Part shown: piece after piece, positions 2,899-27,049 of the stretch
Position numbering within the stretch: position 1 is the first letter of the stretch
How the letters are laid out: each line of letters begins with the position of its first letter
Assembly (NCBI RefSeq): GCF_000730425.1
Contig: NZ_CP008896.1
Coordinates: 5,766,001-5,830,000, forward strand
DNA: 64,000 nt
Origin: Pseudomonas fluorescens
Lineage (GTDB): Bacteria; Pseudomonadota; Gammaproteobacteria; Pseudomonadales; Pseudomonadaceae
Direction of reading: 5' to 3'
Position numbers and translations under genes: made by a program
Notes under the pieces: model-generated
What the model was told of the DNA's origin: nothing
The model's database searches: none
The model's input: the letters and a program-made list of their open reading frames with translations, nothing else

Positions 2899-2942
2899 AG
2901 AAATCCATCCTCTGGAGCCGGCAGGGAAAACCGGGGCTATAT

Positions 2943-2960
2943 ACATAATGATCACTATGT
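2943..2960. promoter_or_regulatory. Candidate TetR operator 1 (imperfect 18-bp palindrome)
   Basis: ACATAATGATCACTATGT reads as a palindrome with one mismatched pair, centred on TGATCA, in the divergent gap between the OYE-type gene and the TetR gene. Size and position suit an operator for the adjacent regulator; binding is inferred. Confidence 0.45.
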
Positions 2961-2996
2961 AATAATTCACCGAGGTCAGATGTGTCAATATATTTG

Positions 2997-3008
2997 TAAC
3001 GAACGTTA
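2997..3008. promoter_or_regulatory. Candidate TetR operator 2 (TAACG-AA-CGTTA)
   Basis: A 12-bp inverted repeat with perfect 5-bp arms ends 15 bases before the tetR start codon, where a bound repressor would block its own transcription. It is unlike the palindrome at 2943-2960, so probably only one of the two is the true TetR site. Confidence 0.35.
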
Positions 3009-3023
3009 ATTCCAGGGGGAAGC

Positions 3024-3626: not shown

Positions 3627-3780
3627 CCCCGCAAAACTGTATGGCACAACCTTGTTTTTCTGTTCCTTCCATATATGAGAGTGTGATTGTCATTCTGGGT
3701 GGTTAATATCCAATCCTGATTGATAGATAGTGAAGTCACTGGCCCAACGCCGGAACCTTCCAATCAATCGGAGCTTCATC

Positions 3781-4158
3781 ATGACGATCAAATCTGTTCT
3801 CGGCCTTTACGAAACCGCCCTCAACACCAACGACATCAAGACCATTCTCGACCTGTATGGCAGCGACCCGGTGTTCATGCCTCAGCACGCACCTGCCCTG
3901 GTCGGCCGTGACGCGGTGAAAGCCGGTTACGAGCAGGTTTTTGCCACCCTCAAGTTGAATGTCAAGTTCACCATCCATGAGATCGAAGAAGTCGGCAACT
4001 GGGCCTGGGTGCGTACCTCCTCGGCTGGGACCACGCGCATTCTGGCTGCCGGGATTGATGTGACCGAAGGCAACAATGAGTTGTTCGTGTTCCGTAACGA
4101 ACAAGGTAACTGGAAGATTCACCGCTATCTGTTCGCTACCACTCAACCACGTGCCTGA
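3781..4158 (+). CDS. SnoaL/NTF2-like protein (cytoplasmic paralog)
   Basis: A 125-residue single-domain alpha+beta cone-fold protein of the SnoaL/DUF4440 type (YETALNTNDIKTILDLYGSDPVFMP near the start, then GRDAVKAGYEQVF). Such proteins act as small isomerases, hydrolases or binding proteins; no catalytic set can be assigned here. No signal peptide. It is a clear paralog of the exported protein at 5172-5654: both share the VFMPQ, GRDAV, KLNVKFTI and EGN..VF blocks in the same order. The start at 3781 follows GGAGC; upstream in-frame starts lie in non-homologous sequence. It probably heads a transcript with the quinone reductase and the exported paralog. Confidence 0.82.
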   Translation: MTIKSVLGLYETALNTNDIKTILDLYGSDPVFMPQHAPALVGRDAVKAGYEQVFATLKLNVKFTIHEIEEVGNWAWVRTSSAGTTRILAAGIDVTEGNNELFVFRNEQGNWKIHRYLFATTQPRA

Positions 4159-4168
4159 GGCCATTAGC

Positions 4169-5155
4169 ATGAAAGCTTTTGTCATTGAACAAGCAGGTGG
4201 CCCTGAGGCCTTGACGCTCAAAGACATTCCTTCTGTAGAACCCTCCAGCGAGGAGGTGAGGATTCGTGTGCGGGCATTGGGCCTCAACCGTGCGGAAGCC
4301 TATCTGCGTGCCGGGAAAATGGGCCCGATCACGGCTCCGCGGGTACCGGGCATCGAGGCTGTGGGGGAAGTGATTCATGATCCTTCGGGCACTCTGCGTA
4401 CCGGCCAGCGCGTCGCCACCGCCATGGGCGGCATGCAGTTCGCCCGTAATGGGAGCTATGCCGAAGAGGTGACGGTATTGCGCAGCAATGTGATTTCTTT
4501 GGAGGGTTCGACACTTTCATGGGAAGAGCTTGCCGCGTTACCTGAAGCCTACCTCACGGTGTGGGGCGCGCTGGACAAGAGCCTGGCGATCCAGCCAGGC
4601 CAGACGCTGCTGGTTCGCGGCGCAACGTCTTCAGTCGGCCTGGCGGCGCTGACCTATGCCAAGGCCCGCGGCCTGAAAGTGATTGCCACGACCCGCTCGG
4701 CAGACAAGGTCCAGCGCTTGCGCGAGATGGGAGCCGATGACGTGGTGGTCGACAACGGATCGATCGCCGAGCAGGTTCGCCAGCGGGCTCCTCAAGGCGT
4801 TGATGCGGTGCTGGAGGTGGTCGGTGCCGCGACGTTGCGCGACAGCCTCAAGACGGTACGCCCGTTTGGTGCCGTCAGCGTTATCGGATTGCTGGGAGGG
4901 GCACCGGTGCTGGAGCAACTGCACCTGATGCAGGACCTGCCGGCGGCCGTAAAGCTGAACTTCTTCGGCAGTGGCCTGCTCGGCACGCCGGACATGCCCC
5001 TCAAGGACAGCCCGCTTTTGTGGATTGCCAAGGAAGTCGAAGCGGGGCGCATGCCGTCGATCCGCACGAAAACCTTTGAATTCGAGCAGATACCTGATGC
5101 CCATCGCCTGATGGAAAGCGACGGTGCCTTGGGCAAGCTGGTCGTAAAACTCTGA
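4169..5155 (+). CDS. Zinc-independent quinone oxidoreductase (MDR family)
   Basis: A 328-residue medium-chain dehydrogenase/reductase. The N-terminal GroES-like domain runs from MKAFVIEQAGG to about residue 125. The Rossmann domain follows with TLLVRGATSSVGLAAL and IATTRSADK, the latter suggesting NADPH preference. The zinc-binding Cys/His residues of alcohol dehydrogenases are absent, which points to the QOR/enoyl-reductase branch that reduces quinones or enones with NADPH. The ATG at 4169 starts exactly at the family N-terminus, ten bases after the previous stop, and the next gene follows 16 bases downstream, so the three genes are probably an operon. Substrate unknown. Confidence 0.87.
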   Translation: MKAFVIEQAGGPEALTLKDIPSVEPSSEEVRIRVRALGLNRAEAYLRAGKMGPITAPRVPGIEAVGEVIHDPSGTLRTGQRVATAMGGMQFARNGSYAEEVTVLRSNVISLEGSTLSWEELAALPEAYLTVWGALDKSLAIQPGQTLLVRGATSSVGLAALTYAKARGLKVIATTRSADKVQRLREMGADDVVVDNGSIAEQVRQRAPQGVDAVLEVVGAATLRDSLKTVRPFGAVSVIGLLGGAPVLEQLHLMQDLPAAVKLNFFGSGLLGTPDMPLKDSPLLWIAKEVEAGRMPSIRTKTFEFEQIPDAHRLMESDGALGKLVVKL

Positions 5156-5171
5156 CACTAAGGAGCACATC

Positions 5172-5654
5172 ATGCGTACTTCATTACTGGCGCTGACCTT
5201 GGGCGCCTTGCTTCTCCCCGCTATTGCCATGGCGACTCAACCGGCTGGCGCAAAAGAAGCGGTGAAAGAGGCGGTCACTGCCCAGCTGCAGCAATATCAA
5301 ACGGCGTTGAATGCTTCGGACCTGGACCAGGTGATGGCGTTGTACGCAGAGGACGCGGTGTTCATGCCGCAAAACAGTTTGCCTGCCGTTGGGCGTGATG
5401 CCGTGCGCGAGGCCTATCAACGGGTCTTCGCAGCGATCAAGCTCAACGTACGGTTTACGATTGATGAGATTCAGCCGCTGTCACCTGATTGGGCCTTTGC
5501 CCGCACTCGCTCCAACGGTATTGTCAAACCGCTGGCGGCCGCGCAATCGAGCAGCGCTGAAGGGAACCAGGAAGTATTTTTGCTGCACCGTGAAACCGAT
5601 GGAAAATGGCGTTTTGCGCGCTACATTTTCTCTTCTACCAATGCTCCCAAGTGA
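5172..5654 (+). CDS. Exported SnoaL/DUF4440 protein (SgcJ/EcaC-like)
   Basis: A 160-residue protein with a signal peptide (hydrophobic SLLALTLGALLLPAIAMA, cleavage probably after the AMA near residue 22), then one SnoaL/DUF4440 domain. It is the exported paralog of the protein at 3781-4158. AAGGAG lies ten bases before the ATG. The pair suggests one fold used on both sides of the inner membrane around a cytoplasmic NADPH quinone reductase. No catalytic residues can be named. A strong terminator follows at 5703-5734. Confidence 0.82.
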   Translation: MRTSLLALTLGALLLPAIAMATQPAGAKEAVKEAVTAQLQQYQTALNASDLDQVMALYAEDAVFMPQNSLPAVGRDAVREAYQRVFAAIKLNVRFTIDEIQPLSPDWAFARTRSNGIVKPLAAAQSSSAEGNQEVFLLHRETDGKWRFARYIFSSTNAPK

Positions 5655-5702
5655 CAATCGTGTCCTGAATGTGTGGGGGCTGTTTGTAGCGCCGCCTCTA
5701 AA

Positions 5703-5734
5703 AAAAACGCCGCTGTGTCATGAGCGGCGTTTTT
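5703..5734. terminator. Bidirectional Rho-independent terminator
   Basis: A 12-bp perfect stem (AAAAACGCCGCT / AGCGGCGTTTTT) with an 8-nt loop has an A-tract on one side and a T-tract on the other, so it works for both convergent genes: the exported SnoaL protein and the M20 peptidase. Confidence 0.9.
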
Positions 5735-5796
5735 GTTTGCCCGGGATTCAAGGCTGGAGGAACGGACTTGCCTGCAAGGTTGGCCCAATCCTCTGA

Positions 5797-7536
5797 TCAC
5801 AGCTTGGGCAATTGCCCTATACGCCCCATCATCTCGGTCACGATCTGCAGGTCCAGCAGGAACTGTTCGGTTGTCTTGAACTCGTTGTCGGTATGGCCGG
5901 TGTACTTGGCTTCAGGCCGTGCCAGGCCAAATTGCACGCCGTTGGGCAGCTCATGCACCGATGTTGCGCCGGCTGAAGTGCCGAACTTGGATTCCATGCC
6001 CAGGTTTTCCGTGGCCACGGCCAGCAACGCCTTGACCCATTCGCCTTCGGGGTTGCGGTACATCGGCGCGGCAATCGAGTAATCGAACGTCGGTGCGATA
6101 TGGGTCTTGGTGCTCCAGGCGTTCAGCTTGTCGGCGATTTCCTTTTTGAGGGTTTGCGGCGCTTTGCCTTTTGGCACCCGCAGGTTGACTGCCAGCTTGA
6201 AGGTTTTTTCATCGATGCCCACGAAGGTCAGGGAAGTGGTCAGCGGCCCCATGAACTCATCGGAAAACCCCACGCCCAATTTGCCACCCAGGTAGTCCAG
6301 GCCCCAGTTTTCGGCGGCGTAGCGCGCGGCGTCGGTAATCTCGTTGTGCTTGAGCGCCACCTTGCCACCCAGGCTGTTGATAAAGTCCAGCATCCGCGCC
6401 ACCGGGTTGATGCCGGACTCGGGCTCGGAGGAGTGAGCCGATACCCCGGTAACCGTCAGCTTGACGTCTTTGCCGACAACCTTGGCATCTACCGTGAAAT
6501 CACCACCATGGGCCTTGGCATAGGCAGCGCCGGCCTGTTGCAGGCTGGCAGCCAGTTCGGCGGGTTTGTCACTGCGCAAGGTTGCCACCGACGCCGAAGG
6601 GATCTGGTTGGTCGCCAGGCCGCCGGTCATCGCGACGATTTCGGCGCCGTTGCCTTGTGCCTTGCGCTTGGCAAAGGTTGCCATGACCGTGCCATAACCC
6701 TTCTCGGCGATCACTACCGGATAGCCGCCATCCAGTGCCAGGTTGTAGTTTGGTGTCGGGTTGCGTTCAAAGTAATAAGGAATGGCGTCGCCGGTGGTTT
6801 CCTCAGTGGTGTCTACCAGCAGCTTGAAATTGCGTGCCAGTGGCAGCTTTTCTTCCTTGATCACTTTCATGGCGTACAGCGTGACCACGATGCCGTTCTT
6901 GTCATCCTCGGTGCCGCGGCCGTACATGCGGTCGCCAATCAGCGTGACCTTGAATGGGTCGAGGCGCGTGCCGTCGGCCAGTACCCAGTTTTCCGGGGTC
7001 ACCGGCACCACGTCGGCGTGGGCGTGGATGCCGACCACTTCATCGCCAGTGCCTTCCAGGGATATTTCATAGACGCGATTGTCGATGTTGCGAAAGCTCA
7101 GGTTAAAAGACTGGGCCAGGCTCTTGATCTTGTCGGCGATCTTGATGAATTCAGGGTTGTCGTGCTGGGCTACGCCTTCCACCTGGAAGGTCGGAATGGC
7201 CACCAGCTCGCGCAGAGTCTCGGTCGCCGCTGCGCCGTATTTCACCCGGGCGTAGAGGCCCAGCAGGCGGTGAATCTCGTTTTGCTGCTCGGCCGACAGG
7301 CTCTTGTTATCGAGAAAGGCACTGATTGCCGGGGCGAGATCGGCGGTTTTGCCCAGCTCACTCTTGGCCAGGCTACCCAGAAAGGTGCGGAAGTCCTTGA
7401 TCGAGGCGTCATTGAACGTCTTGAGGATGGTCGCGCTCTGTTGTGGGGTGATATTGGCGAAGGCTGGCGTGGTAAAGGCCGACAGGCTGGCGACCATCAG
7501 GGTGGCGGCGGCCAGGTGCTTGAGGGAGAAGTCCAT
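5797..7536 (-). CDS. Exported M20-family dipeptidase
   Basis: A 579-residue zinc peptidase of the M20 clan (PepV/carnosinase-like). It has a signal peptide ending at about AFA (residues 1-27), placing it in the periplasm. Metal-binding landmarks are GIHAHADVVPV (His, Asp), YGRGTEDDKNG (bridging Asp), DTTEETTGD (general-base Glu pair) and, in the lid/dimer region, VSAHSSEPESG. An extra N-terminal helical segment of about 100 residues precedes the catalytic core, which makes it longer than PepV (about 470). Expected role is hydrolysis of dipeptides or acylated amino acids for nutrition. It is a single-gene unit. Confidence 0.85.
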   Translation of the reverse strand: MDFSLKHLAAATLMVASLSAFTTPAFANITPQQSATILKTFNDASIKDFRTFLGSLAKSELGKTADLAPAISAFLDNKSLSAEQQNEIHRLLGLYARVKYGAAATETLRELVAIPTFQVEGVAQHDNPEFIKIADKIKSLAQSFNLSFRNIDNRVYEISLEGTGDEVVGIHAHADVVPVTPENWVLADGTRLDPFKVTLIGDRMYGRGTEDDKNGIVVTLYAMKVIKEEKLPLARNFKLLVDTTEETTGDAIPYYFERNPTPNYNLALDGGYPVVIAEKGYGTVMATFAKRKAQGNGAEIVAMTGGLATNQIPSASVATLRSDKPAELAASLQQAGAAYAKAHGGDFTVDAKVVGKDVKLTVTGVSAHSSEPESGINPVARMLDFINSLGGKVALKHNEITDAARYAAENWGLDYLGGKLGVGFSDEFMGPLTTSLTFVGIDEKTFKLAVNLRVPKGKAPQTLKKEIADKLNAWSTKTHIAPTFDYSIAAPMYRNPEGEWVKALLAVATENLGMESKFGTSAGATSVHELPNGVQFGLARPEAKYTGHTDNEFKTTEQFLLDLQIVTEMMGRIGQLPKL

Positions 7537-7700
7537 TGCTGGGGCATTCCTTTGCAGGTGGTGAGTAGGAAGTTTCTGTCGGTATCATCAGAAATATTTC
7601 CACACACTAGCATCACCCACCCGCCGGAGGGGAGCCTCTGGTGGGGGAGATGTCCTATCGCAGTACGAAAACGCCGCCTGCCACTCACAGGCTGGTGTCG

Positions 7701-8330
7701 TCAGTCGAGGCTATAGCGAACCGACAGCGTGCCCTTTTTCTCGGACAGTCCGAGAATCGTGACTGGACCGATCTGGGCGAGGGTTTGCACGTGAGTGCCG
7801 CCGCAGGCGTAGGACGGCAGCTCCCCAAAGCCGACCTCCCGGGTGCCGCCGTCCAATGTCATATGGCGTGGCAGGTCCGCAGCGATCCATTGGTTGACCT
7901 GATCCTGCAAGGCATCGGCTTCCATGTTTTGTGCCGATTCTCCACGGATAAAACTGATCTTGCCTTCACCTGGCCAGTGGTGGGCCTTGATCGGCATCCA
8001 GCCCAGGGTTTCACCGGCGTTGCCGATCAGATGCCCGGCCGAATGCAGGCGTGTGTGCAGGGCGCGGCGTTCGCCGTCGACCCGCGCTTGCTGGGGGCCA
8101 AGTGCGACGGGCTGGTCCACGTAATGCACGATACGCTGCTCTTCCTGCACCACTTTCAACACATTGCTGTGCCCCAGCCACCCGGTATCAAAGGGTTGGC
8201 CGCCACCCTGGGGATGGAAAATGGTGGACTGCAGGATTACCGCAAACTGCTGTTCATGAGGCGTGCACTCCAGTACATCAACATCGGCAACCAGGTGGTC
8301 ATGGGTAAAAAACAGGCGTTGGGTCATCAT
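7701..8330 (-). CDS. AlaX-type alanyl-tRNA editing protein
   Basis: A 209-residue free-standing editing domain related to the AlaRS C-terminal editing module. It hydrolyses mischarged Ser- or Gly-tRNA(Ala). Zinc-binding motifs are present: HTRLHSAGH (HxxxH) near residues 92-100, and CGGTH near residue 175. The flavin-free N-terminal beta barrel carries the HPQGGGQPFD segment. Start codons at 8330 and 8327 are tandem ATGs and cannot be separated by sequence alone. It is divergent from the LysR gene at 8418 with about 85 bases between them. Confidence 0.88.
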   Translation of the reverse strand: MMTQRLFFTHDHLVADVDVLECTPHEQQFAVILQSTIFHPQGGGQPFDTGWLGHSNVLKVVQEEQRIVHYVDQPVALGPQQARVDGERRALHTRLHSAGHLIGNAGETLGWMPIKAHHWPGEGKISFIRGESAQNMEADALQDQVNQWIAADLPRHMTLDGGTREVGFGELPSYACGGTHVQTLAQIGPVTILGLSEKKGTLSVRYSLD

Positions 8331-8417
8331 CTACATCCACATCAGGGTTCTGCGCCGCAGTATAAGTAGTGCTTGAATGGGTGATAATCCGTTCAAATAT
8401 CAATGGACCTGTGCGTC

Positions 8418-9350
8418 ATGAGCATCAATCTTCCTTTGCCATTGCTGGGTGAAATGGCGATTTTCGTCAAAGTGGTGGAAACCGGCAGCTTTTCTGAGGC
8501 CGCGCGCCAGTTGGGGGCTTCGCCATCGGCGGTGAGCCGTAGCATCTCGCGCCTGGAAAAGGCCCTGGCCACTCGGTTATTGCAGCGCACCACGCGCAAG
8601 CTGCGCTTGAGCGAAGGGGGCGAGGCCGTGTTCAAGCGCTGTCAGGAAATGGTCAACGCGGCGCGCTCGGTCATGGAAATCAGCGGCCAGTACACCCACG
8701 AGGCGGAAGGGCTGGTGCGGGTCAGCGTGCCCAAGGCGGTCGGGCGGTTTGTGGTGCATCCGCATATGCCGCAATTTCTGCGGCGTTATCCCAAGGTCGA
8801 TGTGCAGTTGATCCTGGAGGATCGACCGGTGGATTTGATTGATGACAATGTCGACCTGAGCATCCGTATCACCGACAGCCCACCGCCGGGCTTGGTGGGG
8901 CGCCAGTTACTGCCGATCGAGCATTTGCTGTGTGCCACGCCCCAGTATCTGGCCACCCACGGGATGCCGCTGCACCCCCATGACTTGCTGGAGCACAGTT
9001 GCATCTACCTGGGCGAAACCCCCGGGGATGCGCGCTGGAAATTCCGCCAGGCTGGCAAAACAGTGACGGTGGGTGTACATGGGCGCTATGCGGCCAATCA
9101 CACGGGGGTGCGGTTGGATGCGGTGTTGCAGGACGTGGGGATTGGCAGCTTGCCGTATTTCACTGCGCGCCATGCATTGGAGGAGGGGCGGTTGGTGCAG
9201 GTCCTGGCGCAATGGGATTTCATTGCCTCGTACCATGGTGATGCCTGGTTGCTGCATTCCCCCACACGATACCTGCCGCCGAAGTTGCGGGTGTTTATCG
9301 ATTATCTGGTGGAGTGCATGGCGCGGGAGCCGACATTGCATCGGCGGTAG
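8418..9350 (+). CDS. LysR-family transcriptional regulator
   Basis: A 310-residue LysR regulator of the large DhcR/YafC-like group. The HTH is in ETGSFSEAARQLGASPSAVS, followed by the linker helix SRLEKALATRLLQRTT and the effector domain with VDLSIRITD and IGSLPYF. Neither the ATG at 8418 nor the one at 8403 has a good Shine-Dalgarno site; 8418 is used because it gives the N-terminus usual in the group. Divergent from alaX, which it might regulate; no other partner is visible. Confidence 0.85.
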   Translation: MSINLPLPLLGEMAIFVKVVETGSFSEAARQLGASPSAVSRSISRLEKALATRLLQRTTRKLRLSEGGEAVFKRCQEMVNAARSVMEISGQYTHEAEGLVRVSVPKAVGRFVVHPHMPQFLRRYPKVDVQLILEDRPVDLIDDNVDLSIRITDSPPPGLVGRQLLPIEHLLCATPQYLATHGMPLHPHDLLEHSCIYLGETPGDARWKFRQAGKTVTVGVHGRYAANHTGVRLDAVLQDVGIGSLPYFTARHALEEGRLVQVLAQWDFIASYHGDAWLLHSPTRYLPPKLRVFIDYLVECMAREPTLHRR

Positions 9351-9365
9351 GCGCGCGAGCGAAAA

Positions 9366-9457
9366 TGTGGGAGCGGGCTTGCCCGCGATAGCGGTGTATC
9401 AGTCAACTCATGTATCGACTGGCACTCAGCCATCGCGGGCAAGCCCGCTCCTACACA
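9366..9457. repeat. REPIN (paired REP palindromes)
   Basis: Two inverted copies of the GGGAGCGGGCTTGCCCGCGAT-type REP, about 45 bases apart, form one long hairpin between the convergent LysR gene and the conserved gene at 9495. The spacer and arm ends are diverged. Confidence 0.85.
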
Positions 9458-9494
9458 AGCCCTCTCCACACCTGGATTTTCGGTGCGTTCGGGA

Positions 9495-9902
9495 TCAGTG
9501 CTTGGACTGGTCTTGGGGCATAGCCAGCAACTGCTTTTCCTGGTTCCAGTCGAAAGGCTCGTCGTTCTGCTCGGCTTCGAAGCGGCGTTCTTCCAGGGCC
9601 TGGTACAGGTCCAGTTCATCGTCGGGCATGAAGTGCAGGCAGTCACCGCCGAAAAACCACAGCAGGTCACGTGGCACCAGATGGGCAATCTGCGGGTAGC
9701 GCAGGATGACCTGGCTCATGATGTCCTGGCCCAGGTATTGGCTTTCGATCGGGTCGATGGGCAGCATGGCCCGCAGTTCATCAAAGCGCTCCAGGAACAA
9801 CGCGTGGCTTTCCTCGGGAACCTGTTCGGCTTCGCCGACGGCAACCAGGATACTGCGCAGGTGGTCGAGCAAGACGAGATGATCGGCAACGACGTTGGAC
9901 AC
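9495..9902 (-). CDS. Conserved Pseudomonas protein (PA2817-like)
   Basis: A 135-residue acidic cytoplasmic protein with no membrane segment or catalytic motif that I recognise. Visible features are a helical N-terminus (ADHLVLLDHLRSILVAVGEAE) and a conserved-looking WFFGGDCLHFMPDDEL block. Its place next to fadE matches, from memory, the small hypothetical near PA2815 in P. aeruginosa, so it is a genuine conserved gene of unknown role, perhaps linked to fatty-acid metabolism by context only. Confidence 0.75.
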   Translation of the reverse strand: MSNVVADHLVLLDHLRSILVAVGEAEQVPEESHALFLERFDELRAMLPIDPIESQYLGQDIMSQVILRYPQIAHLVPRDLLWFFGGDCLHFMPDDELDLYQALEERRFEAEQNDEPFDWNQEKQLLAMPQDQSKH

Positions 9903-9979
9903 GGGAGTAAGTCCTCATAAAGCAAAAACGGGCGCGAGAGTATATAGCTCTCGCGCCCGCTTTTATATGACCGCCGGTA

Positions 9980-12427
9980 TTAGCGGACTCTGCCTGGTGC
10001 CTGGGCCAACTCCTCTTTGCTGAAGTCATCCACATCGATCACCTTGCGCCGTGCAGCTTCTGCGTCGCGCAGGGTCTGCGCTTCAGCTGGTTGCAGCACG
10101 CCGGCTTCCAGTGCCGCTTCGATGGCATGCTCCCCTGCGCGGGGCTTGACCTGGCCACTCTTGAGGGCGCTGTGGAGTTTCTTTTGTAGGGGATGGCTGG
10201 CACCCAGCAGGTCGTAGGCATGTTGCAACGCGCCTACCGGGTCTTGCGCCGATTGCGGGCGATAGCAGCCAGCCAGCAGCTCTTCGAGGGTCGGATCCCC
10301 CTTGGCCCGGCCAATCACTGCCGCGACCTCGGCGTCCAGTGCGTCGGACGGGCCTGTGTGGCGGCGACCGAACGGGAACACGATGACCCGCATCAGGCAG
10401 CCCAGCACTTTGTTGGGGAAGTTGCCGAGCAGTTCATCCAGCGCGCGTTCCGACTGGCCCAGGCTTTCTTCCATGGCCCAGGCAAACAGCGGCTCCAGAT
10501 GGTCCGGGGAGTCGAGATCGTGGTAGCGCTTGAGCGCCGCCGAGGCCAGGTACATATGGCTGAGCACATCCCCCAACCGCGCCGACAGGCGTTCGCGACG
10601 CTTCAACTCGCCCCCCAGCAGCATCATGCTCAGGTCCGCCAGTAGGGCGAATGCGGCAGCCTGGCGGTTGAGCGCGCGGAAATAGCCCTGGCTCAAGCGG
10701 TTGCCCGGAGTTTTTTCGAAGTGGCCCAGGCCCAGGTTCAGCACCAGGGTGCTGGCCGCGTTGCTCACGGCAAAGCCGATATGTTGCATCAGTAGCCCAT
10801 CGAACTCCTTGAGGGCCTGATCGCGGTCTTCACGGCCAGCCAGGGCCATTTCCTTGAGCACGAACGGGTGGCAACGGATTGCCCCCTGGCCGAAGATCAT
10901 CAGGTTGCGCGAGAGGATATTCGCGCCTTCGACAGTGATGAAGATCGGCGCCCCTTGCCAGCTGCGGCCCAGGTAATTGTTGGGCCCCATGATGATGCCC
11001 TTGCCACCGTGCACGTCCATGGCATGGCTGATGCATTCGCGGCCGCGCTCGGTCAGGTGGTACTTGAGGATTGCCGAGAGCACCGAGGGCTTTTCCCCCA
11101 GGTCGACGGCATTGGCGGTGAGCATCCGCGCGCTGTCCATCAGCCAGGCATTGCCGCCGATACGGGCCAGGGCTTCCTGGATGCCCTCGAAGGCCGAGAG
11201 TGGCACGTTGAACTGCTCGCGCACTTGGGCGTACTGGCCGGTCACCAGGCTGGTGAACTTGGCGGCGCCAGTGCCCACCGCCGGCAGGGAGATCGAACGG
11301 CCTACCGACAGGCAGTTCATCAGCATCATCCAGCCCTTGCCGAGCATTTCCTGGCCGCCGATCAGGAAGTCCAGGGGAATGAAAACGTCCTTGCCGGAGT
11401 TGGGGCCATTCATGAACGCGGCGCCCAGGGGCAGATGGCGACGGCCGATTTCCACGCCGGGGGTGTCGGTGGGGATCAGCGCCAGGCTGATGCCCAGGTC
11501 TTCTTCTTCACCCAGCAGGTGGTCCGGGTCATGGGCCTTGAAGGCCAGGCCGAGCAGGGTCGCGACCGGTCCCAGGGTGATATAGCGTTTTTCCCAGTTC
11601 AGGCGCAGGCCAAGGGTTTCCTTGCCTTCCCATTCGCCTTTGCAGATTACCCCGGTGTCGGGCATCGCACCGGCATCGGAACCGGCCAGCGGGCCAGTCA
11701 GGGCAAAGCACGGGATGTCATCGCCACGGGCCAGGCGTGGCAGGTAGTGGTTGCGTTGCTCATCGGTGCCGTAGTGCAGCAGCAGTTCTGCCGGGCCCAG
11801 GGAGTTGGGGACCATTACCGTGGAGGCAAGGTCGCCGCTGCGGGTTGCCAGTTTCATCGCCACCTGGGAATGGGCGTAGGCCGAAAAGCCCTTGCCACCG
11901 AACTCCTTGGGGATGATCAGGGCAAAGAAGCCATGTTGCTTGATATGGTCCCAGGCTGCCGGTGGCAGGTCCATGGCCTGGCCGATTTCCCAGTCGGTGA
12001 CCATGGCGCACAGCTCTTCGGTGGGGCCGTCGATAAAGGCCTGTTCTTCTTCGGTCAGTTGCGCCTTGGGGTAGGCCAGCAGCTTGTCCCAGTCGGGGCG
12101 GCCGCTGAACAGTTCGCCGTCCCACCACACGGTACCGGCGTCAATGGCATCGCGCTCGGTCTCGGACATCGGCGGCAAGACTTTCTGGAACCAGTTGAAC
12201 AGCGGTGCGGTGAAGTACTGGCGGCGCAGGTCGGGCAGCAGCAGCGGTGCAGCGACCGCCGCCAGCAGGGCCCAGAACACCAGCAGCAGCCAGCCCGGCG
12301 CATGGCTGAAGGCGCCCATCGCCAACAGGTAGACGGCGACCACGCCCAGGGCGGGCAGGGGGGCGGTACGACGGTGTGCCAGGTAGGCAATGCCGAGCAC
12401 CAGAACCAGTATCCACAACAACAGCAT
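9980..12427 (-). CDS. fadE: Membrane-bound acyl-CoA dehydrogenase FadE
   Basis: An 815-residue acyl-CoA dehydrogenase for the first step of fatty-acid beta-oxidation. Two to three N-terminal hydrophobic helices (residues about 1-65) anchor it to the inner membrane, followed by the ACAD N-terminal, middle (CFALTGPLAGSD flavin region) and C-terminal domains and the long extra C-terminus (DUF1974-like) typical of gamma-proteobacterial FadE. The start is the ATG at 12427, seven bases after GGAGG; an in-frame TTG at 12433 is rejected. A separate transcript from the transglutaminase-like gene, which is divergent across about 200 bases. Confidence 0.93.
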   Translation of the reverse strand: MLLLWILVLVLGIAYLAHRRTAPLPALGVVAVYLLAMGAFSHAPGWLLLVFWALLAAVAAPLLLPDLRRQYFTAPLFNWFQKVLPPMSETERDAIDAGTVWWDGELFSGRPDWDKLLAYPKAQLTEEEQAFIDGPTEELCAMVTDWEIGQAMDLPPAAWDHIKQHGFFALIIPKEFGGKGFSAYAHSQVAMKLATRSGDLASTVMVPNSLGPAELLLHYGTDEQRNHYLPRLARGDDIPCFALTGPLAGSDAGAMPDTGVICKGEWEGKETLGLRLNWEKRYITLGPVATLLGLAFKAHDPDHLLGEEEDLGISLALIPTDTPGVEIGRRHLPLGAAFMNGPNSGKDVFIPLDFLIGGQEMLGKGWMMLMNCLSVGRSISLPAVGTGAAKFTSLVTGQYAQVREQFNVPLSAFEGIQEALARIGGNAWLMDSARMLTANAVDLGEKPSVLSAILKYHLTERGRECISHAMDVHGGKGIIMGPNNYLGRSWQGAPIFITVEGANILSRNLMIFGQGAIRCHPFVLKEMALAGREDRDQALKEFDGLLMQHIGFAVSNAASTLVLNLGLGHFEKTPGNRLSQGYFRALNRQAAAFALLADLSMMLLGGELKRRERLSARLGDVLSHMYLASAALKRYHDLDSPDHLEPLFAWAMEESLGQSERALDELLGNFPNKVLGCLMRVIVFPFGRRHTGPSDALDAEVAAVIGRAKGDPTLEELLAGCYRPQSAQDPVGALQHAYDLLGASHPLQKKLHSALKSGQVKPRAGEHAIEAALEAGVLQPAEAQTLRDAEAARRKVIDVDDFSKEELAQAPGRVR

Positions 12428-19510: not shown

Positions 19511-19825
19511 TCAGGCGCTGACTTTGAGGCCGATCAACCCGGCAATGATCAGGGCCACACTGGCCAACCGAAACAGCGCCATGGACTCCCCAAACAGGAT
19601 AATCCCGGCAATCACCGTGCCCACTGCGCCGACGCCGGTCCAGATGGCATAGGCGGTACCCAGTGGCAACTCCTTCATGGCCAGCCCCAGCAGGCCAAGG
19701 CTGACGGCCATGGCGCCAATCGTCAGGGCGGTGGGCAGCGGCTTGCTGAAGCCGTCGGTGTACTTCAGGCCGATGGCCCAGCCAACTTCAAACAGCCCGG
19801 CGAAAAACAGAATGACCCAGGACAT
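19511..19825 (-). CDS. sugE: SMR-family guanidinium exporter Gdx (SugE)
   Basis: A 104-residue small multidrug resistance protein with four transmembrane helices. The membrane-embedded Glu is in [19 protein letters not shown] (about residue 13), and the [15 protein letters not shown] block of helix 3 is the Gdx/SugE type rather than EmrE. Gdx proteins export guanidinium in exchange for protons. The ATG at 19825 follows AAGGAAGGTCTT. A longer in-frame reading from 19969 is rejected because it would translate the riboswitch hairpins. The guanidine-II riboswitch directly upstream confirms the guanidinium-exporter assignment. Confidence 0.95.
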
Positions 19826-19842
19826 AAAGACCTTCCTTTTAG

Positions 19843-19898
19843 ACGTGGGGCCGTCCCCGGATTGAATGCTCGAACGAGTCGTGGGGTCGTCCCCGCGA
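19843..19898 (-). promoter_or_regulatory. Guanidine-II (mini-ykkC) riboswitch upstream of sugE
   Basis: In the sugE sense, two short stem-loops occur in tandem: GGGG-ACGA-CCCC (complement of 19883-19894) and GGGG-ACGG-CCCC (complement of 19847-19858), separated by about 24 bases. Paired P1/P2 hairpins with ACGR tetraloops are the definition of guanidine-II RNA, which binds two guanidinium ions through loop-loop contact and opens the ribosome binding site. The second hairpin ends some 20 bases before the sugE start, next to AAGGAAG. Confidence 0.93.
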
Positions 19899-19931
19899 AG
19901 GCTCGTAGAGTGCCGAAAAGCGCGCGCCCGA

Positions 19932-20888
19932 TCAAGTTTCGGCGAGGATCCTGCGATCTTCCTTTTCACTCATCCGGCGGAAATACGTCGACAGCAACGC
20001 CCCGGAAATATTGTGCCAGACGCTGAACAGCGCACTGGGTACCGCCGCCAGTGGCGAGAAGTGCGCACTGGCCAGTGCGGCGCCCAGCCCCGAGTTCTGC
20101 ATGCCTACTTCCAGTGCCAACGACTTGCGTTGGGCCAGCGGCAGCTTGAACACGCGGCCGGTAAAGTAGCCCAGCAAGTAGCCGAAGCTGTTGTGCAGTA
20201 TCACCACCGCCATGATCAGCAGGCCTGATTCGGCAATCTTCGCCTGGCTCGCCGCGACCACCGCCGCGACGATAATCACGATACTCACCACCGAGACCAA
20301 TGGCAGCACATCGACGGCATGCCGCACGCGATCACCCAACAAGCGTTGCGCCAATACCCCGAGGACGATGGGTAGCAGCACCACTTGCAGGATCGACCAG
20401 AACAGCTCCATGAACGACACCGGCAGCCACGCCGAGGCCAGCAGCCAGATCAGTGCCGGGGTCAGCAACGGGGCGAGGAGGGTGGTAACGGCGGCGATGG
20501 CCACCGACAGCGCCAGGTCGCCCCGGGCCAGCCAGGTCATCACGTTGGATGAAGTGCCGCTTGGGCAGCAGCCGACCAGGATCACGCCGACGGCAATTTC
20601 CGGTGGCAGCTGGAAGGCCTGGCACAGCAACCAGGCCACGCCGGGCATGATCACGAAGTGCGCGACCACCCCCAGGGCCACACGCCACGGGTGGCGTGCG
20701 ACCTCGGCGAAATCTTCAAGTTTGAGGGTCAGGCCCATGCCGAACATCACCAGGCCCAGCAGTGGCACGATGGCGCTTTTCAGGCCGATAAACCAACTGG
20801 GCTGGAGGAACGCGACCACGGCAAAGATCAGCACCCAGTAGGCGAAGGTATTGCCGACGAAACGGCTCAAGGCGGCGAGTGCGCGCAT
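19932..20888 (-). CDS. BASS-family (bile acid:sodium symporter-like) transporter
   Basis: A 318-residue inner-membrane protein with about ten helices. The first repeat has [14 protein letters not shown], and the [19 protein letters not shown] block is the sodium/substrate site of the BASS/ASBT superfamily. Substrate in bacteria is usually an organic acid, pantoate or pyruvate-like. It starts at the ATG at 20888. Its stop lies only 34 bases before the guanidine-II element, so readthrough into sugE is possible, though sugE most likely has its own promoter. Confidence 0.88.
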
Positions 20889-22105: not shown

Positions 22106-22125
22106 GCGCGCCACACCGAAACGAA

Positions 22126-22201
22126 GGGTGATTAGCTCAGCTGGGAGAGCATCTGCCTTACAAGCAGAGGGTCGGCGGTTCGATCCCGTCATCACCCACC
22201 A
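22126..22201 (+). tRNA. tRNA-Val (anticodon TAC), copy 1
   Basis: A 76-nt cloverleaf: acceptor GGGTGAT pairs with ATCACCC, D-arm AGCTCAGCTGGGAGAGC, anticodon loop CTTACAA (TAC), T-loop GTTCGATCC, and an encoded CCA end. Identical to copy 2 at 26675-26750. Confidence 0.97.
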
Positions 22202-22220
22202 TTCGCTTCATGTGTTACGC

Positions 22221-22297
22221 GCAGCGGTAGTTCAGTCGGTTAGAATACCGGCCTGTCACGCCGGGGGTCGCGGGTTCGAGTCCCGTCCGCTGCGCCA
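22221..22297 (+). tRNA. tRNA-Asp (anticodon GTC), copy 1
   Basis: A 77-nt cloverleaf: acceptor GCAGCGG pairs with CCGCTGC, anticodon loop CTGTCAC (GTC), T-loop GTTCGAGTC, discriminator G and encoded CCA. It follows tRNA-Val by 19 bases on the same transcript and is identical to copy 2. Confidence 0.97.
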
Positions 22298-22339
22298 TAT
22301 TCGGTAACTTGGAACACTGAACGCCAGGTCACCACAGGA

Positions 22340-22364
22340 AGCCCGCTCATCGAGCGGGCTTTTT
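22340..22364 (+). terminator. Rho-independent terminator of tRNA cassette 1
   Basis: A 9-bp stem AGCCCGCTC / GAGCGGGCT with a 3-nt loop runs into TTTT. Part of the block conserved after both tRNA cassettes. Confidence 0.88.
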
Positions 22365-22394
22365 GCTGCCTGGGGTTTGCTAAAACCTTCGGCC

Positions 22395-22446: not shown

Positions 22447-24885
22447 TTAGAAATCCCAGCGCGTGGTGACCATGAAATTACGCGGTTCACCGTAGGCGGC
22501 AGAGTTATAGAAGCCGATATTGGTGTAGTAGGACTTGTCGAAGATGTTATTGACGTTCAGTGTCGCTGACAGGTTCTTGGTGACCTGGTAGCGGGTCATC
22601 AGGTCCACCAGCCAGTAGGCCTCCTGGGAGAACTCTTCGTATCCGTTATGAGGCGTGTTGTAGATATCCTGCCAGCCCACGCTCTGCCAGCGCACGCCAC
22701 CGCCGACGGTCAACTTGTCGAGGTTGCCCTTGAGCTTGTAGGTGGTGTACAGCTTGATCTGGTCTTCAGGCTCGAACGTGGAGATCTTCACGTCTTTGTC
22801 ATCGCGCACAATCTTGTGGGTATAGCCGGCCTGAAGCTGCCAGCCGGGGGCAATCTCGCCGGACATTTCCACTTCATAGCCCTTGGTCACCGCCTTGCTG
22901 CTCTTGTAGGCGTAGTTGGACGGCTGGGGCTTCTGGTTGTTGTACGCGTCATCGGACAGCGCGCGATTGGATTCATGGATTTCAAAGTACGCCGCGCTGG
23001 CGTTCACCCGGCCGTCGAGGAAGTCGGCTTTCACGCCCAATTCCCAGTTCTGCCCTTCATCCGGCTCAAGCAGCTTGTTTTCCCGGTCGCGGTTGTAGTT
23101 TTCCTGGGGCATGAAGATATCGGTGTAGCTGGCATATACCGAGTAGGTGTCGTTCAAGTCGTAGACCGCGCCAACATATGGTACGAAGCGACCGGACTCG
23201 CGATAACTGGGGTTATAGCCGGTGACCTGATAGTTGACCAGGCGCCCGCCCAGCAGCAGCTTGAGGTCATCGGCCAGGTTCAGGCGCGTGGTCACATACG
23301 CGCCGGTCTGGCGGATGGTGTCGTCGATCAGCGATTGTGCATTGCCCCAGTCCGGCATCGCGCCGTGGCCATGCCAGTTATTGAAGTCGACCATGTTCGG
23401 GTCGAGGTTCCAGTAGCCTTTGCCTTTCCATTGTGAGGCGCTGATCGAGCCGCCCAATACCAGTTCGTGCTCACGCCCGCCGAAGCTGAACGGGCCACTG
23501 ACATATAGGTCGGCCGAGTCGCTGACGGTTTCCCCGGTGTACTTGCCCGAGGTCAGGTGCGCGCTGCCGTCGGGTTGCGGCTGATCGCCCTGGATCGAAC
23601 CCATCAGTGCGTGATAACCGTTGATCTTGTGGTCCAGTTGCAGCTTGGTCACCCAGCCATTGCCCAGGTCGTGTTCGAGCATGGCGAACACGGTACGGGT
23701 GTATTGCTCCCAACTGCTCCAGTCGGCGGCGTTGTTGAACGAGCGCTTGACCTTGTTGCGATCCCCCTTGGAGTTGATCAGCGGGAAGCTGCCTGACCAG
23801 GAGGAGCCCTTGGGCAGCGTGTCCTGGTAGTCACCGCCGACGGTCAGCAGGGTGTCCGGCGACAGGTCGAACTCCATGATGCCGTAGTACGTCGGACTCT
23901 TGCGCGAGTAATGGTCCATGAACGAGTGCTTGTCCTGGTAGGCGGCAACCGCCCGGCCACGCACATGGCCGCTCTCGGTCAGCGGGCCGCTGACGTCCAG
24001 TTCGCTGCGGTAATTGTCCCAGGAGCCGGCGCCGAGCGTGGCATGCCCCTGGAAGTCGGCGGTGGGTTTCTTGCGCACCAGGTTGATCGTCGCACCCAGT
24101 GAGCCGGCGCCGGTGAGCAGGCCGGTGGCCCCCTTGAGCACTTCGACGCGGTCGTAGATCGCCATGTCACTCAAGGTGTTGCCGGCGGAGTAGGCAACGT
24201 TGCGCGCCGTCGAAGGGATGCCGTCGTACTGGAAGTTATTGATCGAAAAACCGCGGGCGTAGTAGTTGCTGCGCTCGCTGTCGAAGGCCGACACGGTGAT
24301 GCCCGGCGTATGGCGCATCACATCGTCGACGTTGTTCAGGCCGAAGTCATCCATGTGCTGGCGCGTAACAACGCTGACGGACTGCGGAGTTTCCTTGGGC
24401 GTCAATACCAGGCGCGTCGCGGTGGCGATGCTGCCAGGCGTGTAGGAGCCGCTGTCTTCGGTGACGTTACCCAACTGGTTGCCGCTGACCTGTGTCGGGC
24501 CCAACTCCAGGGTGCCGTTGCTGGCAGCAGGCGCGGGTTGCAGGGCATACACCTGATCGCCCTTTATCGCAACGTAGCCGCTGCCTTGCAGCAGCCGGTC
24601 GAAACCGTCCTGTATCCCGTAGTTGCCTTGCAGGCCAGGCCCTTTGAGGCCTTCCAGTTCCCGGGACTGGAACACAATGGCCACGCCGGCCTGCTGGGCG
24701 AAACGGTTGAGCGAGCTGCCCAGTGGTCCGGCGGGAATGTTGTAAGCCTGGGCGGCGGTGCTGGCCGTATCCGCCTGGGCCGGGTTGATTTGCAATGCGC
24801 CAACGGTGGCGGCGAGCAAAGCCAGGGAAAACGGCGCGCTTCTCAGCAGGCCAGAGCGCCCACGCGGGTAGGAAGGGGTGTGCAT
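22447..24885 (-). CDS. TonB-dependent siderophore receptor with STN signalling domain
   Basis: An 812-residue outer-membrane receptor of the FpvA/FecA transducer type. The order is signal peptide (to about 38), STN domain (about 45-120; YNIPAGPLGSSLNRFAQQAGV) that contacts FecR, plug with ETPQSVSVVT and YARGFSINNFQYDGI, then the 22-strand barrel ending VTTRWDF with the terminal Phe needed for outer-membrane insertion. The QSVSVVT/GSLGATINLVRKKPT plug type is that of ferric pyoverdine/hydroxamate receptors. The siderophore is not identifiable. It follows fecI and fecR on the same strand and is probably switched on by that pair. Confidence 0.93.
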   Translation of the reverse strand: MHTPSYPRGRSGLLRSAPFSLALLAATVGALQINPAQADTASTAAQAYNIPAGPLGSSLNRFAQQAGVAIVFQSRELEGLKGPGLQGNYGIQDGFDRLLQGSGYVAIKGDQVYALQPAPAASNGTLELGPTQVSGNQLGNVTEDSGSYTPGSIATATRLVLTPKETPQSVSVVTRQHMDDFGLNNVDDVMRHTPGITVSAFDSERSNYYARGFSINNFQYDGIPSTARNVAYSAGNTLSDMAIYDRVEVLKGATGLLTGAGSLGATINLVRKKPTADFQGHATLGAGSWDNYRSELDVSGPLTESGHVRGRAVAAYQDKHSFMDHYSRKSPTYYGIMEFDLSPDTLLTVGGDYQDTLPKGSSWSGSFPLINSKGDRNKVKRSFNNAADWSSWEQYTRTVFAMLEHDLGNGWVTKLQLDHKINGYHALMGSIQGDQPQPDGSAHLTSGKYTGETVSDSADLYVSGPFSFGGREHELVLGGSISASQWKGKGYWNLDPNMVDFNNWHGHGAMPDWGNAQSLIDDTIRQTGAYVTTRLNLADDLKLLLGGRLVNYQVTGYNPSYRESGRFVPYVGAVYDLNDTYSVYASYTDIFMPQENYNRDRENKLLEPDEGQNWELGVKADFLDGRVNASAAYFEIHESNRALSDDAYNNQKPQPSNYAYKSSKAVTKGYEVEMSGEIAPGWQLQAGYTHKIVRDDKDVKISTFEPEDQIKLYTTYKLKGNLDKLTVGGGVRWQSVGWQDIYNTPHNGYEEFSQEAYWLVDLMTRYQVTKNLSATLNVNNIFDKSYYTNIGFYNSAAYGEPRNFMVTTRWDF

Positions 24886-24951: not shown

Positions 24952-24970
24952 AAATGCGAATAATTATTTA
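24952..24970 (-). promoter_or_regulatory. Possible Fur box before the receptor gene
   Basis: AAATGCGAATAATTATTTA overlaps the fecR stop and lies about 70 bases upstream of the receptor start. It resembles Fur sites (GATAATGATAATCATTATC) in its AT-rich paired GAATAATTATT core. Weaker than the site before fecI. Confidence 0.35.
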
Positions 24971-25947
24971 TTGGGTGTTGGCGCGGGGGTTACGACGATC
25001 AGCCATGGCGTAAAGGTGCGCACGTTTATCGGCAGGGTTTTTGCCAGTAATTGCAAGGCGTGGTCGCTGTCATCCAGCGGGATCACGGCTGATACCCGCA
25101 GGCCCTGTAGCGCGGCACGATCAAATTGCAGGCGGCCTGCGCGGTGCCGCGAGATTTCGTCCAGGACCTCGGGCAATGGCCGGTTTTCCACCACCAGTTG
25201 ATGCCGGCGCCAGGCTTCGTTGATGCTCGCCGGGTCGATGCTGCCGATCAGGCGGACGCTGTCGTTGCTGATCAGGGCCTGGGCGCCGGCGGCCACTTCC
25301 AGGGTCTGCCGGGCATCGGCGCTGTGTGCGGCCACGCGGGATTCGAGCAGGGTCAGTACGGTGCTATCGCCCTCGCGCTTGACCACAAACCGCGTGCCCA
25401 GTGCGCGCATGCTGCCTTGGGCGGTCTGTACGATGAACGGCCGCGCCTGATCGTGGGCCACGTCCACCAGGATCTCGCCTTGCAACAGTTCGATGCGCCG
25501 TTGTGTGGCGTCGAAATGCAGGTTGGCCGCGCTGATGCCGTTCAGGCTCAGTGCCGAACCGTCCGCCAGAGTCAGGGTTTGCCATTGGCCCGGGCCGTTG
25601 CGCACGTCAGCCATCCACTGCCGGGGATAAGGGCTAACGAGCAGTGCCGCTGTGGGAATTGCCAGGCTGCAAGCCAGCAGCAGGGCACGCAGTGCATTTG
25701 TGTTGCGACGCGTTTTTTTATCGGCGAAGGCCGCATTCAGTGCTGCCCGTGCCGGGGACTTTTTCCCGCGCAGGGCCTGCATCCGTGAAATCACCGCTTC
25801 CATGCGTGCGGCGGCCGCGGCGTAGTGCGGGCCTTGTTGTTTCCAGCACTCGAACGCCAGGCGCTGTGCCTCGGTCATCTCGCCGTCATGCAGGCGCAGC
25901 ATCCACTCGGCAGCTTGTTCTTCGATCTGTTGGCGGGCGTCGGGCAT
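24964..25947 (-). CDS. fecR: FecR-type anti-sigma regulator
   Basis: A 327-residue signal transducer. The N-terminal cytoplasmic anti-sigma domain has the paired Trp of the family (EQAAEWMLRLHDG, FECWKQQGP). One transmembrane helix follows (ALLLACSLAIPTAALLV, residues about 88-104), then the periplasmic FecR domain (LADGSALSLNGIS, GSMRALGTRFVVKREG) and a C-terminal STN-like segment that binds the receptor. It starts seven bases after the fecI stop. It transmits siderophore binding from the receptor to the sigma factor. Confidence 0.92.
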   Translation of the reverse strand: MPDARQQIEEQAAEWMLRLHDGEMTEAQRLAFECWKQQGPHYAAAAARMEAVISRMQALRGKKSPARAALNAAFADKKTRRNTNALRALLLACSLAIPTAALLVSPYPRQWMADVRNGPGQWQTLTLADGSALSLNGISAANLHFDATQRRIELLQGEILVDVAHDQARPFIVQTAQGSMRALGTRFVVKREGDSTVLTLLESRVAAHSADARQTLEVAAGAQALISNDSVRLIGSIDPASINEAWRRHQLVVENRPLPEVLDEISRHRAGRLQFDRAALQGLRVSAVIPLDDSDHALQLLAKTLPINVRTFTPWLIVVTPAPTPNK

Positions 25948-25954
25948 GGGGGCG

Positions 25955-26473
25955 TCAGGTGTCCATGCTATGGCCGCAATGCATCAGGGCCTGGATCAGG
26001 TATTTGCGCACGGTACGTTCCGAGAGTTTGAGCTGACGGGCGATCTGTTGTTGGGTCAGTTCTTCCAGGTAATAGAGCACAAACGCCTGGCGCGAATACT
26101 CATGCATGCCTTCGAGGATAAACGCGATCTGTTCCAGGGCCTCAAGGGTGGTGTGGATCTGCTCCGGCGACTGGAATCCCTCCAGCGCGTCTACCGTCAG
26201 CGCCAGCTCCTGCAGGTAGGCCTGTTCGATCTGCCTGCGCCGGGCCTGGTCGATGATCAGTCGCCGGGCGGTGGTGCTCAGATAGGCCCTGGGTTCACGG
26301 ATCGTCGCCACCGACTCACGGGTGTTCAGGATGCGTGCGAAAGTGTCCTGTGCCAGGTCGGCGGCGTTGTGCCGACAGCCCAACTTGCGCCGCAACCAGG
26401 TGAGCAGCCAGCCATGGTGCTCGCTGTAGAGCTGGGTTATTTCCCGTTGGAATGGCGGTTCACCCACAGACAT
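25955..26473 (-). CDS. fecI: FecI-type ECF sigma factor
   Basis: A 172-residue iron-starvation ECF sigma. Region 2 includes LAQDTFARIL, and region 4 holds the HTH (LTQQQIARQLKLSERTVRKYLIQAL). No other domains. First gene of the unit with fecR and, behind it, the receptor it should activate. A Fur-like palindrome sits 19-37 bases upstream of the start, so low iron would release its transcription. Confidence 0.93.
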   Translation of the reverse strand: MSVGEPPFQREITQLYSEHHGWLLTWLRRKLGCRHNAADLAQDTFARILNTRESVATIREPRAYLSTTARRLIIDQARRRQIEQAYLQELALTVDALEGFQSPEQIHTTLEALEQIAFILEGMHEYSRQAFVLYYLEELTQQQIARQLKLSERTVRKYLIQALMHCGHSMDT

Positions 26474-26510: not shown

Positions 26511-26674
26511 TGTGGGGCCGGGGCCGGGTAAACACAAGAGACCCGCGTTTACACGCTACAAGCGCCGTTTTTCCGGGGTGTAGGTTGCCGACGGAAAGAT
26601 ATTTCAAATAAATTGCATTTAAATCAACACATTGCAGTTTTTTCGTATATGATGCGCCCCGCACCGAACGTAAA

Positions 26675-26750
26675 GGGTGATTAGCTCAGCTGGGAGAGCA
26701 TCTGCCTTACAAGCAGAGGGTCGGCGGTTCGATCCCGTCATCACCCACCA
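26675..26750 (+). tRNA. tRNA-Val (anticodon TAC), copy 2
   Basis: A 76-nt gene identical in sequence to 22126-22201, with encoded CCA. Sequence before the tRNA differs from that of copy 1, so the promoter region is not part of the duplication. Confidence 0.97.
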
Positions 26751-26768
26751 TTACGTCCAATGCTACGC

Positions 26769-26845
26769 GCAGCGGTAGTTCAGTCGGTTAGAATACCGGC
26801 CTGTCACGCCGGGGGTCGCGGGTTCGAGTCCCGTCCGCTGCGCCA
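26769..26845 (+). tRNA. tRNA-Asp (anticodon GTC), copy 2
   Basis: A 77-nt gene identical to 22221-22297, 18 bases after tRNA-Val. The following 40 bases are also nearly the same as after copy 1. Confidence 0.97.
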
Positions 26846-26885
26846 TATTCGGAAACCTGGAATACTGAACGCCAGGTCACCACAC

Positions 26886-26913
26886 AAAGCCCGCTCACTG
26901 AGCGGGCTTTTTT
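26886..26913 (+). terminator. Rho-independent terminator of tRNA cassette 2
   Basis: AAAGCCCGCTC / GAGCGGGCTTT stem with 3-nt loop and TTTTTT tail, homologous to the one at 22340-22364. Confidence 0.88.
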
Positions 26914-27049
26914 GTGCCTGGAATTTTGCGACCAGGGACAAATCCTCCCATACACGTTGACCTACACCCACGCGAAGAGGCGCCAGCATGCCGGCGATGG
27001 CGTCCGATAAAACACCGTAGGGTGTCAGGTAACCAGCGTCATCGTTAAC

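Follow-up and report, generated by a model that had tools for sequence, protein, structure and literature searches.

The closest described counterparts of the RNA considered here are the guanidine-II riboswitches of Pseudomonas aeruginosa and Escherichia coli. The former precedes a multidrug-type transporter gene, has a solved structure for its P2 hairpin (5VJ9) and responds to guanidine, not to urea, in a translation assay; a helix formed by its flanks, P0, has been proposed to hide the Shine-Dalgarno sequence (PMC9561414). The latter stands before sugE and combines a P1 loop ACGA, the stronger binding site, with a P2 loop ACGG (PMC9300104), and its proposed platform is an anti-Shine-Dalgarno segment within the linker (PMC9300104; PMC9094411), which is 13 nt long (PMC9300104). 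Linkers of the class range from 7 to 40 nt (PMC7544219).

We analysed a window of 64,000 nucleotides of Pseudomonas fluorescens DNA (NZ_CP008896.1, positions 5,766,001 to 5,830,000), part of a genome assembled as one contig of 6.06 Mb. The window contains a standard member of this known, widespread riboswitch class, standing before a gene that is usually under its control. When the whole window was searched against 4227 Rfam families, RF01068 (Guanidine-II) matched at 19898-19846 on the minus strand over the full length of the model (positions 1-48 of 48) with 39.2 bits, the gathering score being 32 (E 0.00026), which is more than chance; this is the covariance-model check named by an earlier note on this DNA, and the identification of a guanidine-II RNA made there passed it. 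The two G-C-rich hairpins with ACGR loops by which the class is recognized are both present (loops ACGA and ACGG; table 1), their P1-P2 linker of 20 nt (19878-19859, minus strand) lies inside the class range, and guanidine-related genes follow, gdx in the window and a carboxylase gene at a second copy elsewhere in the genome. The GGGG/CCCC inner stems are perfect in both hairpins, as the earlier note had said in placing them directly before sugE, and P1 as a whole forms 7 of its 8 pairs, with one C.A mismatch. Where that note spoke of two tandem hairpins, P1 and P2 are indeed there, but the description omits a linker hairpin, frequent in related leaders and here weak, with 3 bp. The loop pair equals that of E. 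coli sugE, whereas the linkers differ, the E. coli one carrying the proposed anti-Shine-Dalgarno and the longer one of the window a weak hairpin. With P. aeruginosa the window shares the RNA class, a transporter gene and a possible pairing of flank and Shine-Dalgarno, a likeness drawn by description and not letter by letter, the P0 helix and the response of the window's RNA being putative. Taken together, the short 5' leader of gdx (sugE) is very probably a guanidine-II (mini-ykkC) riboswitch that works as proposed below. The motif, the gene family, the guanidine genes of the genome and covarying pairs of P1 and the linker hairpin in relatives are observed; ligand binding, the direction of control, the P0 helix and export are inferred. 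As annotation this is routine: it names the inducer and the likely substrate of one gene of the small multidrug resistance (SMR) family and sets its start codon.

Table 1. Features of the gdx leader and gene in the window (coordinates are those of the window).
Feature	Position	Strand	Sequence, basis or remark
Possible -35	19930..19935	-	TTGATC; overlaps stop codon of upstream gene; counterparts in related leaders
Possible -10	19907..19912	-	CACTCT; 17 nt after -35; far from TATAAT consensus
5' flank	19897..19902	-	GCCUUC; possible P0 5' strand; last two bases also base of P1
P1 hairpin	19879..19898	-	UCGCGGGG-ACGA-CCCCACGA; loop ACGA; RF01068 match; covarying P1 pairs in 30 leaders
Linker hairpin, 3 bp	19869..19878	-	CUC-GUUC-GAG; weak third hairpin; in MFE and centroid structures of leader
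Remaining linker, 10 nt	19859..19868	-	From sequence
P2 hairpin	19847..19858	-	GGGG-ACGG-CCCC; loop ACGG; RF01068 match
Shine-Dalgarno region	19830..19838	-	AAGGAAGGU; from sequence; 19835-19830 possible P0 3' strand
gdx (sugE), 104 aa, predicted guanidinium exporter of SMR family	19511..19825	-	Homology to NF008512, PF00893 and PDB 6wk5

The gene opens with ATG 19825, and the longest mechanical frame, from GTG 19969, would span the riboswitch. The shorter start, already preferred in the earlier note, is borne out by AAGGAAGG just 5' of this ATG, by an MSW protein start that is kept among relatives while the longer frame is not conserved, and by some relatives in which the open frame extends no more than a few codons beyond this start (frames of 107 aa in G017 and 108 aa in G010). 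The protein exceeds the cut-off of the NCBIfam SugE equivalog NF008512 (141.3 bits against 126) and matches PF00893 of Pfam with 95.4 bits. Its nearest solved structure is PDB 6wk5 (E 4.1e-29, aligned residues 1-103), that is, Gdx-Clo, deposited with PMC7695847, where E13, W16, S42, Y59 and W62 surround the substrate; all five residues are present in the window's protein, so that the attribution to Gdx-type SMR proteins stands on the equivalog, the nearest structure and the site residues alike. Gdx-Clo comes from another organism; proton-coupled export of guanidinium, the activity of the Gdx subtype, is for the window's protein a prediction by homology. The claim that the RNA fixes the substrate goes too far; what the RNA does is to point to guanidinium as the inducer and the likely substrate. 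The genome encodes three SMR genes; in the leaders of the remaining two, inspection by eye revealed no hairpins of this kind, and a genome-wide search gave no guanidine-II match there. The gene upstream of the leader (19932-20888, minus strand) encodes a member of the bile acid:sodium symporter family whose nearest match is PanS, although below the curated cut-off (306.9 against 400 bits), and its stop codon lies 33 bases from P1.

Besides this copy, the genome has two more guanidine riboswitches: the one at 5431806-5431760 is again a guanidine-II (37.6 bits), the other, at 5436077-5435977, a guanidine-I (94.5 bits). Both guanidine-II copies thus exceed the gathering score of RF01068. The second one stands before the genes for a 1186-aa protein matching TIGR02712 (urea carboxylase) and then allophanate hydrolase, and UAAP2, UAAP1 and an ABC transporter are encoded between it and the guanidine-I. 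We take UAAP1/UAAP2 to be the carboxyguanidine deaminase. The whole forms a guanidine-use operon at 5.43 Mb, outside the window (positions 2357-12078 of locus L033), with the guanidine-I before the ABC transporter and the guanidine-II before the carboxylase. The same layout is described for guanidine users, where the importer and carboxyguanidine deaminase are under guanidine-I and the carboxylase and hydrolase under guanidine-II (PMC12186494). This layout together with gdx leads to the prediction that the bacterium would both use and export guanidine. Unlike the copy in the window, the one controlling the 1186-aa carboxylase has a linker of 11 nt without a hairpin.

The class is near-universal in Pseudomonas. 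At E 0.001, guanidine-II matched in 37 of 57 genomes of the order: 33 of the 36 that belong to the genus, among them the window's own, and 4 of the 21 outside it. A wider draw at E 0.01 gave matches in 288 of 298 genomes of the genus, 283 of them over the gathering score; these genus-wide counts take in matches of either type, gdx or carboxylase. Among the ten genomes of the genus with no match, three have a close Gdx ortholog (85-88% identity) and one a homolog of 50%, and all four of the respective leaders show two ACGR hairpins by eye. In G206, with Gdx homologs of 49 and 44%, no motif was seen in the leader stretch viewed; the best Gdx matches of four further genomes reach 31-35%, and one genome, 78% complete, has none. 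The Rfam search hence missed motif-bearing gdx leaders in G012, G084 and G275 as well as the leader of the 50% homolog in G026. By eye, the leaders of loci L086, L211, L212 and L213, whose guanidine-II motifs the Rfam search left unreported, include three with long linker hairpins that have CACCCUG-like arms and a fourth with arms CCCA/UGGG, which stands before a Gdx of 50% identity.

Leaders were parsed from two collections. The first comprises 69 leaders of the genus, namely 30 of a first set and 39 of 40 added later (L102 was dropped, as the start pattern found no MSW start in it; the leader of L087 was read from L050, the same place in the genome). The 40 were hand-picked from at least 47 candidates of gdx-type length (51-54 nt) and are not a random sample, as the matches listed favour good scores. 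The second collection derives from the 80 best named loci out of 533 relatives, the 80 being all Pseudomonas, with P. gessardii at 97%; four loci (L151, L161, L166 and L167) were dropped, as the start pattern did not match. The two-hairpin motif precedes gdx in the 69 parsed leaders of the first collection and in 76 of the 80 loci of the second. The loop pair of the window, ACGA/ACGG, occurs in 25 of the 69, next to ACGA/ACGA (42), ACGC/ACGA (1) and ACGG/ACGG (1); the 76 leaders from the best 80 named relatives have ACGA/ACGA in 47 cases, ACGA/ACGG in 21 and ACGG/ACGG in 8.

This recurrence before gdx across the genus bears on the idea that the hairpins arose by chance before an efflux gene of the Qac type (quaternary ammonium), with no guanidine function at all. 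The NCBIfam name of the gene family, 'quaternary ammonium compound efflux SMR transporter SugE', would suit such an idea, and the motif is small, with a moderate Rfam E-value, yet the genome's two other guanidine switches speak against it, as does W16, a residue conserved in Gdx and replaced by glycine or alanine in the Qac subtype (PMC7695847). We consider the idea extremely improbable and continue with a guanidine-responsive leader of gdx.

How such a leader may work can be outlined from the described relatives. Without guanidinium, the Shine-Dalgarno sequence would be paired, most likely with the 5' flank in a P0-type helix, and possibly also with bases of the linker or the coding sequence. 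Guanidinium would bind to both loops, with that of P1 (ACGA) as the stronger site and that of P2 (ACGG) as the weaker one. Kissing of the two loops would bring P1 and P2 into an end-to-end alignment and pull the flanks apart, with the ribosome site opening, Gdx being made and guanidinium being exported. The 20-nt linker may meanwhile fold into its small hairpin, weak here and clear in many relatives, and so absorb its extra length.

In the window, the 5' flank may form a P0-type helix with the Shine-Dalgarno sequence, a possibility that has modest support. GCCUUC at 19902-19897 can pair with GAAGGU at 19835-19830, with -9.3 kcal/mol for the flank-tail duplex and -4.2 kcal/mol for the linker-tail one. 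Over 67 leaders, flank-tail pairing has a native mean of -6.97 versus -6.28 when tails are swapped between leaders, and none of 200 swaps was as good; 2 of 200 were among 63 unseen leaders, and the 7 unseen leaders of the window's type, taken alone, showed no advantage (30 of 200 swaps as good). The stability of the leader as such is nothing out of the ordinary (z -0.38). When P1 and P2 are imposed on the fold and the coding sequence is included, the Shine-Dalgarno sequence stays mostly paired; the predicted folds offer no clean switch, and the switching step therefore rests on knowledge of the class.

The RNA may instead be a true guanidine-II switch with a platform of the E. coli kind, its anti-Shine-Dalgarno lying in the linker (e.g. 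UCC 19861-19859) and not in the 5' flank. The minimum free energy structure of the leader does pair this UCC with the Shine-Dalgarno sequence, with P2 refolded, and in both leader sets linker-tail pairing outdoes most swaps (8 and 1 of 200 were as good), in line with the E. coli model (PMC9300104; PMC9094411). Against this stand the weaker linker-tail duplex of the window and the lack of a significant anticorrelation between the strengths of the two pairings, so that the data yield no division of the leaders into two types; we regard a linker-based platform as rather unlikely here. A strict alternative, with P0 in some leaders and a linker anti-Shine-Dalgarno in the others, found no support for the same reason (135 leaders, rho -0.13, p 0.14).

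For the preferred P0-type pairing, the position of the promoter matters. Pairs resembling TTG[AC]NN-N16/17-NANNNT were found in 56 of 68 distinct upstream stretches, against at most 3 of 68 in shuffled ones (200 draws), by a pattern drawn up after the leaders had been viewed; a sigma-70 consensus scan does not list the window's candidate, TTGATC-N17-CACTCT (19935-19907). Transcription from this candidate promoter would begin no more than a few bases from P1, so that the exact start is decisive for P0: an mRNA beginning at 19900 or later would cut it.

The linker hairpin is the one part of this system for which an earlier report may be lacking. The linker of guanidine-II RNAs has been called flexible (PMC7544219) and poorly conserved (PMC9561414). 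Kissing aligns the stems, and in the G. violaceus RNA a linker of 14 nt must span 49 A in a well-extended form (PMC5486947); a state with P2 open and paired to the linker has also been described (PMC9094411). In the parts of the guanidine-II literature covered here, to which the founding papers do not belong, we found no mention of a separate linker hairpin, and an earlier mention is possible.

Directly after P1, the linkers of many gdx leaders carry complementary arms such as GCUC/GAGU, ACGC/GCGU, CGCU/AGCG, ACUC/GAGU, CACCCUG/CAGGGUG or CACUUGAUC/GAUCAAGUG. RNAalifold on a plain alignment of 30 leaders returns P1 and P2 only, with no linker hairpin. The arms are out of register in the alignment, and register-free recombination tests were therefore used. 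Stems of at least 4 bp occur in 46 of 60 distinct linkers, compared with a mean of 23.0 (maximum 31) for recombined and 18.6 (maximum 26) for shuffled linkers (300 draws each), and in 38 of 47 unseen linkers, compared with means of 18.8 (maximum 28) and 15.5 (maximum 23), respectively (200 draws each). In the 84 stem-bearing linkers of both sets pooled (107 linkers), the third pair of the stem is U-A in 28, C-G in 24, G-C in 30 and A-U in 2. The signal is specific to pairing of the linker with itself: the linker-linker score is 1147 against a swap mean of 861 (maximum 982), with at least 4 bp in 88 of 105 (swap maximum 60). The 3' arm of P1 paired with the linker scores 885 against a swap mean of 888, with 4 bp in 62 of 105 (swap mean 55.7, maximum 64), and an anti-P1 helix of these two segments was rejected, its score being at swap level.

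Stem and linker length go together. A stem is present in all 9 linkers over 21 nt and absent from both linkers under 15 nt; individual hairpins include one of 4 bp (L118) and one of 9 bp (L069). The free linker outside the hairpin measures 7-10 nt in 82 of the 84 stem-bearing cases. None of 19 parsed linkers of the carboxylase type has a 4-bp stem; these distinct linkers (11-14 nt, mostly 12-14) came from a looser pattern, a stricter one having found none, and include that of L032, which at 6 nt looks mis-parsed, and that of L004, with a 3-bp stem.

These comparisons of related leaders suggest that in Pseudomonas gdx leaders the linker, of some 20 nt, usually folds into a third, covarying hairpin, of which the window has a weak copy of 3 bp. 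We lean towards viewing the gdx-type guanidine-II of Pseudomonas as a three-hairpin RNA, in which the hairpin after P1 would keep the free linker at about 7-10 nt, so that linkers of roughly 18-34 nt could bridge the same distance as the shorter ones of the carboxylase type and of E. coli, which have no hairpin. The hairpin may also hold or release the linker bases that pair with the Shine-Dalgarno sequence, and copies with long linkers would be under-detected owing to a standard model that lacks this helix.

A rather unlikely competitor is that the linker hairpin is no structure and that its arms are a by-product of kinship or of other selection (promoter-proximal repeats, an anti-Shine-Dalgarno or duplication of the P1 arm). 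The leaders are related, and the at least 14 changes of arm class counted on the Gdx tree rest on a weakly resolved topology (3 of 27 branches starred). Besides the RNAalifold result and the shortness of the window's copy, a first, looser shuffle test with stems allowed anywhere was marginal (28 distinct linkers; 278 against a mean of 227.8 and a maximum of 268 in 500 shuffles). Linker cleavage was moreover enhanced on guanidine binding in an RNA studied earlier (PMC5486947 citing Sherlock 2017), an observation that favours an open linker in that RNA. Such a by-product is, however, hard to reconcile with stem counts above the recombined maxima in both the first and the unseen linkers, with the many pair types per position, with the silence of the control helix involving the P1 3' arm and with the occurrence of long stems in long linkers. 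If borne out by probing, the three-hairpin fold would revise the view of the linker as flexible and poorly conserved, give a reason for the large variation in linker length and provide a better search model.

Elsewhere, the plus strand of the window has two copies of a tRNA-Val(tac)/tRNA-Asp(gtc) pair, at 22124-22378 and 26673-26926, lying 4548-4549 bases apart and sharing one stretch of 80 nt that is identical and another of 166 nt that is 93% identical. Between them lie a gene for a TonB siderophore receptor (22447-24885) and two frames (24964-25947 and 25955-26473) that by eye encode a putative FecR-type anti-sigma factor and a putative ECF sigma factor, which together suggest an iron-uptake signalling module flanked by the duplicated tRNA pairs.
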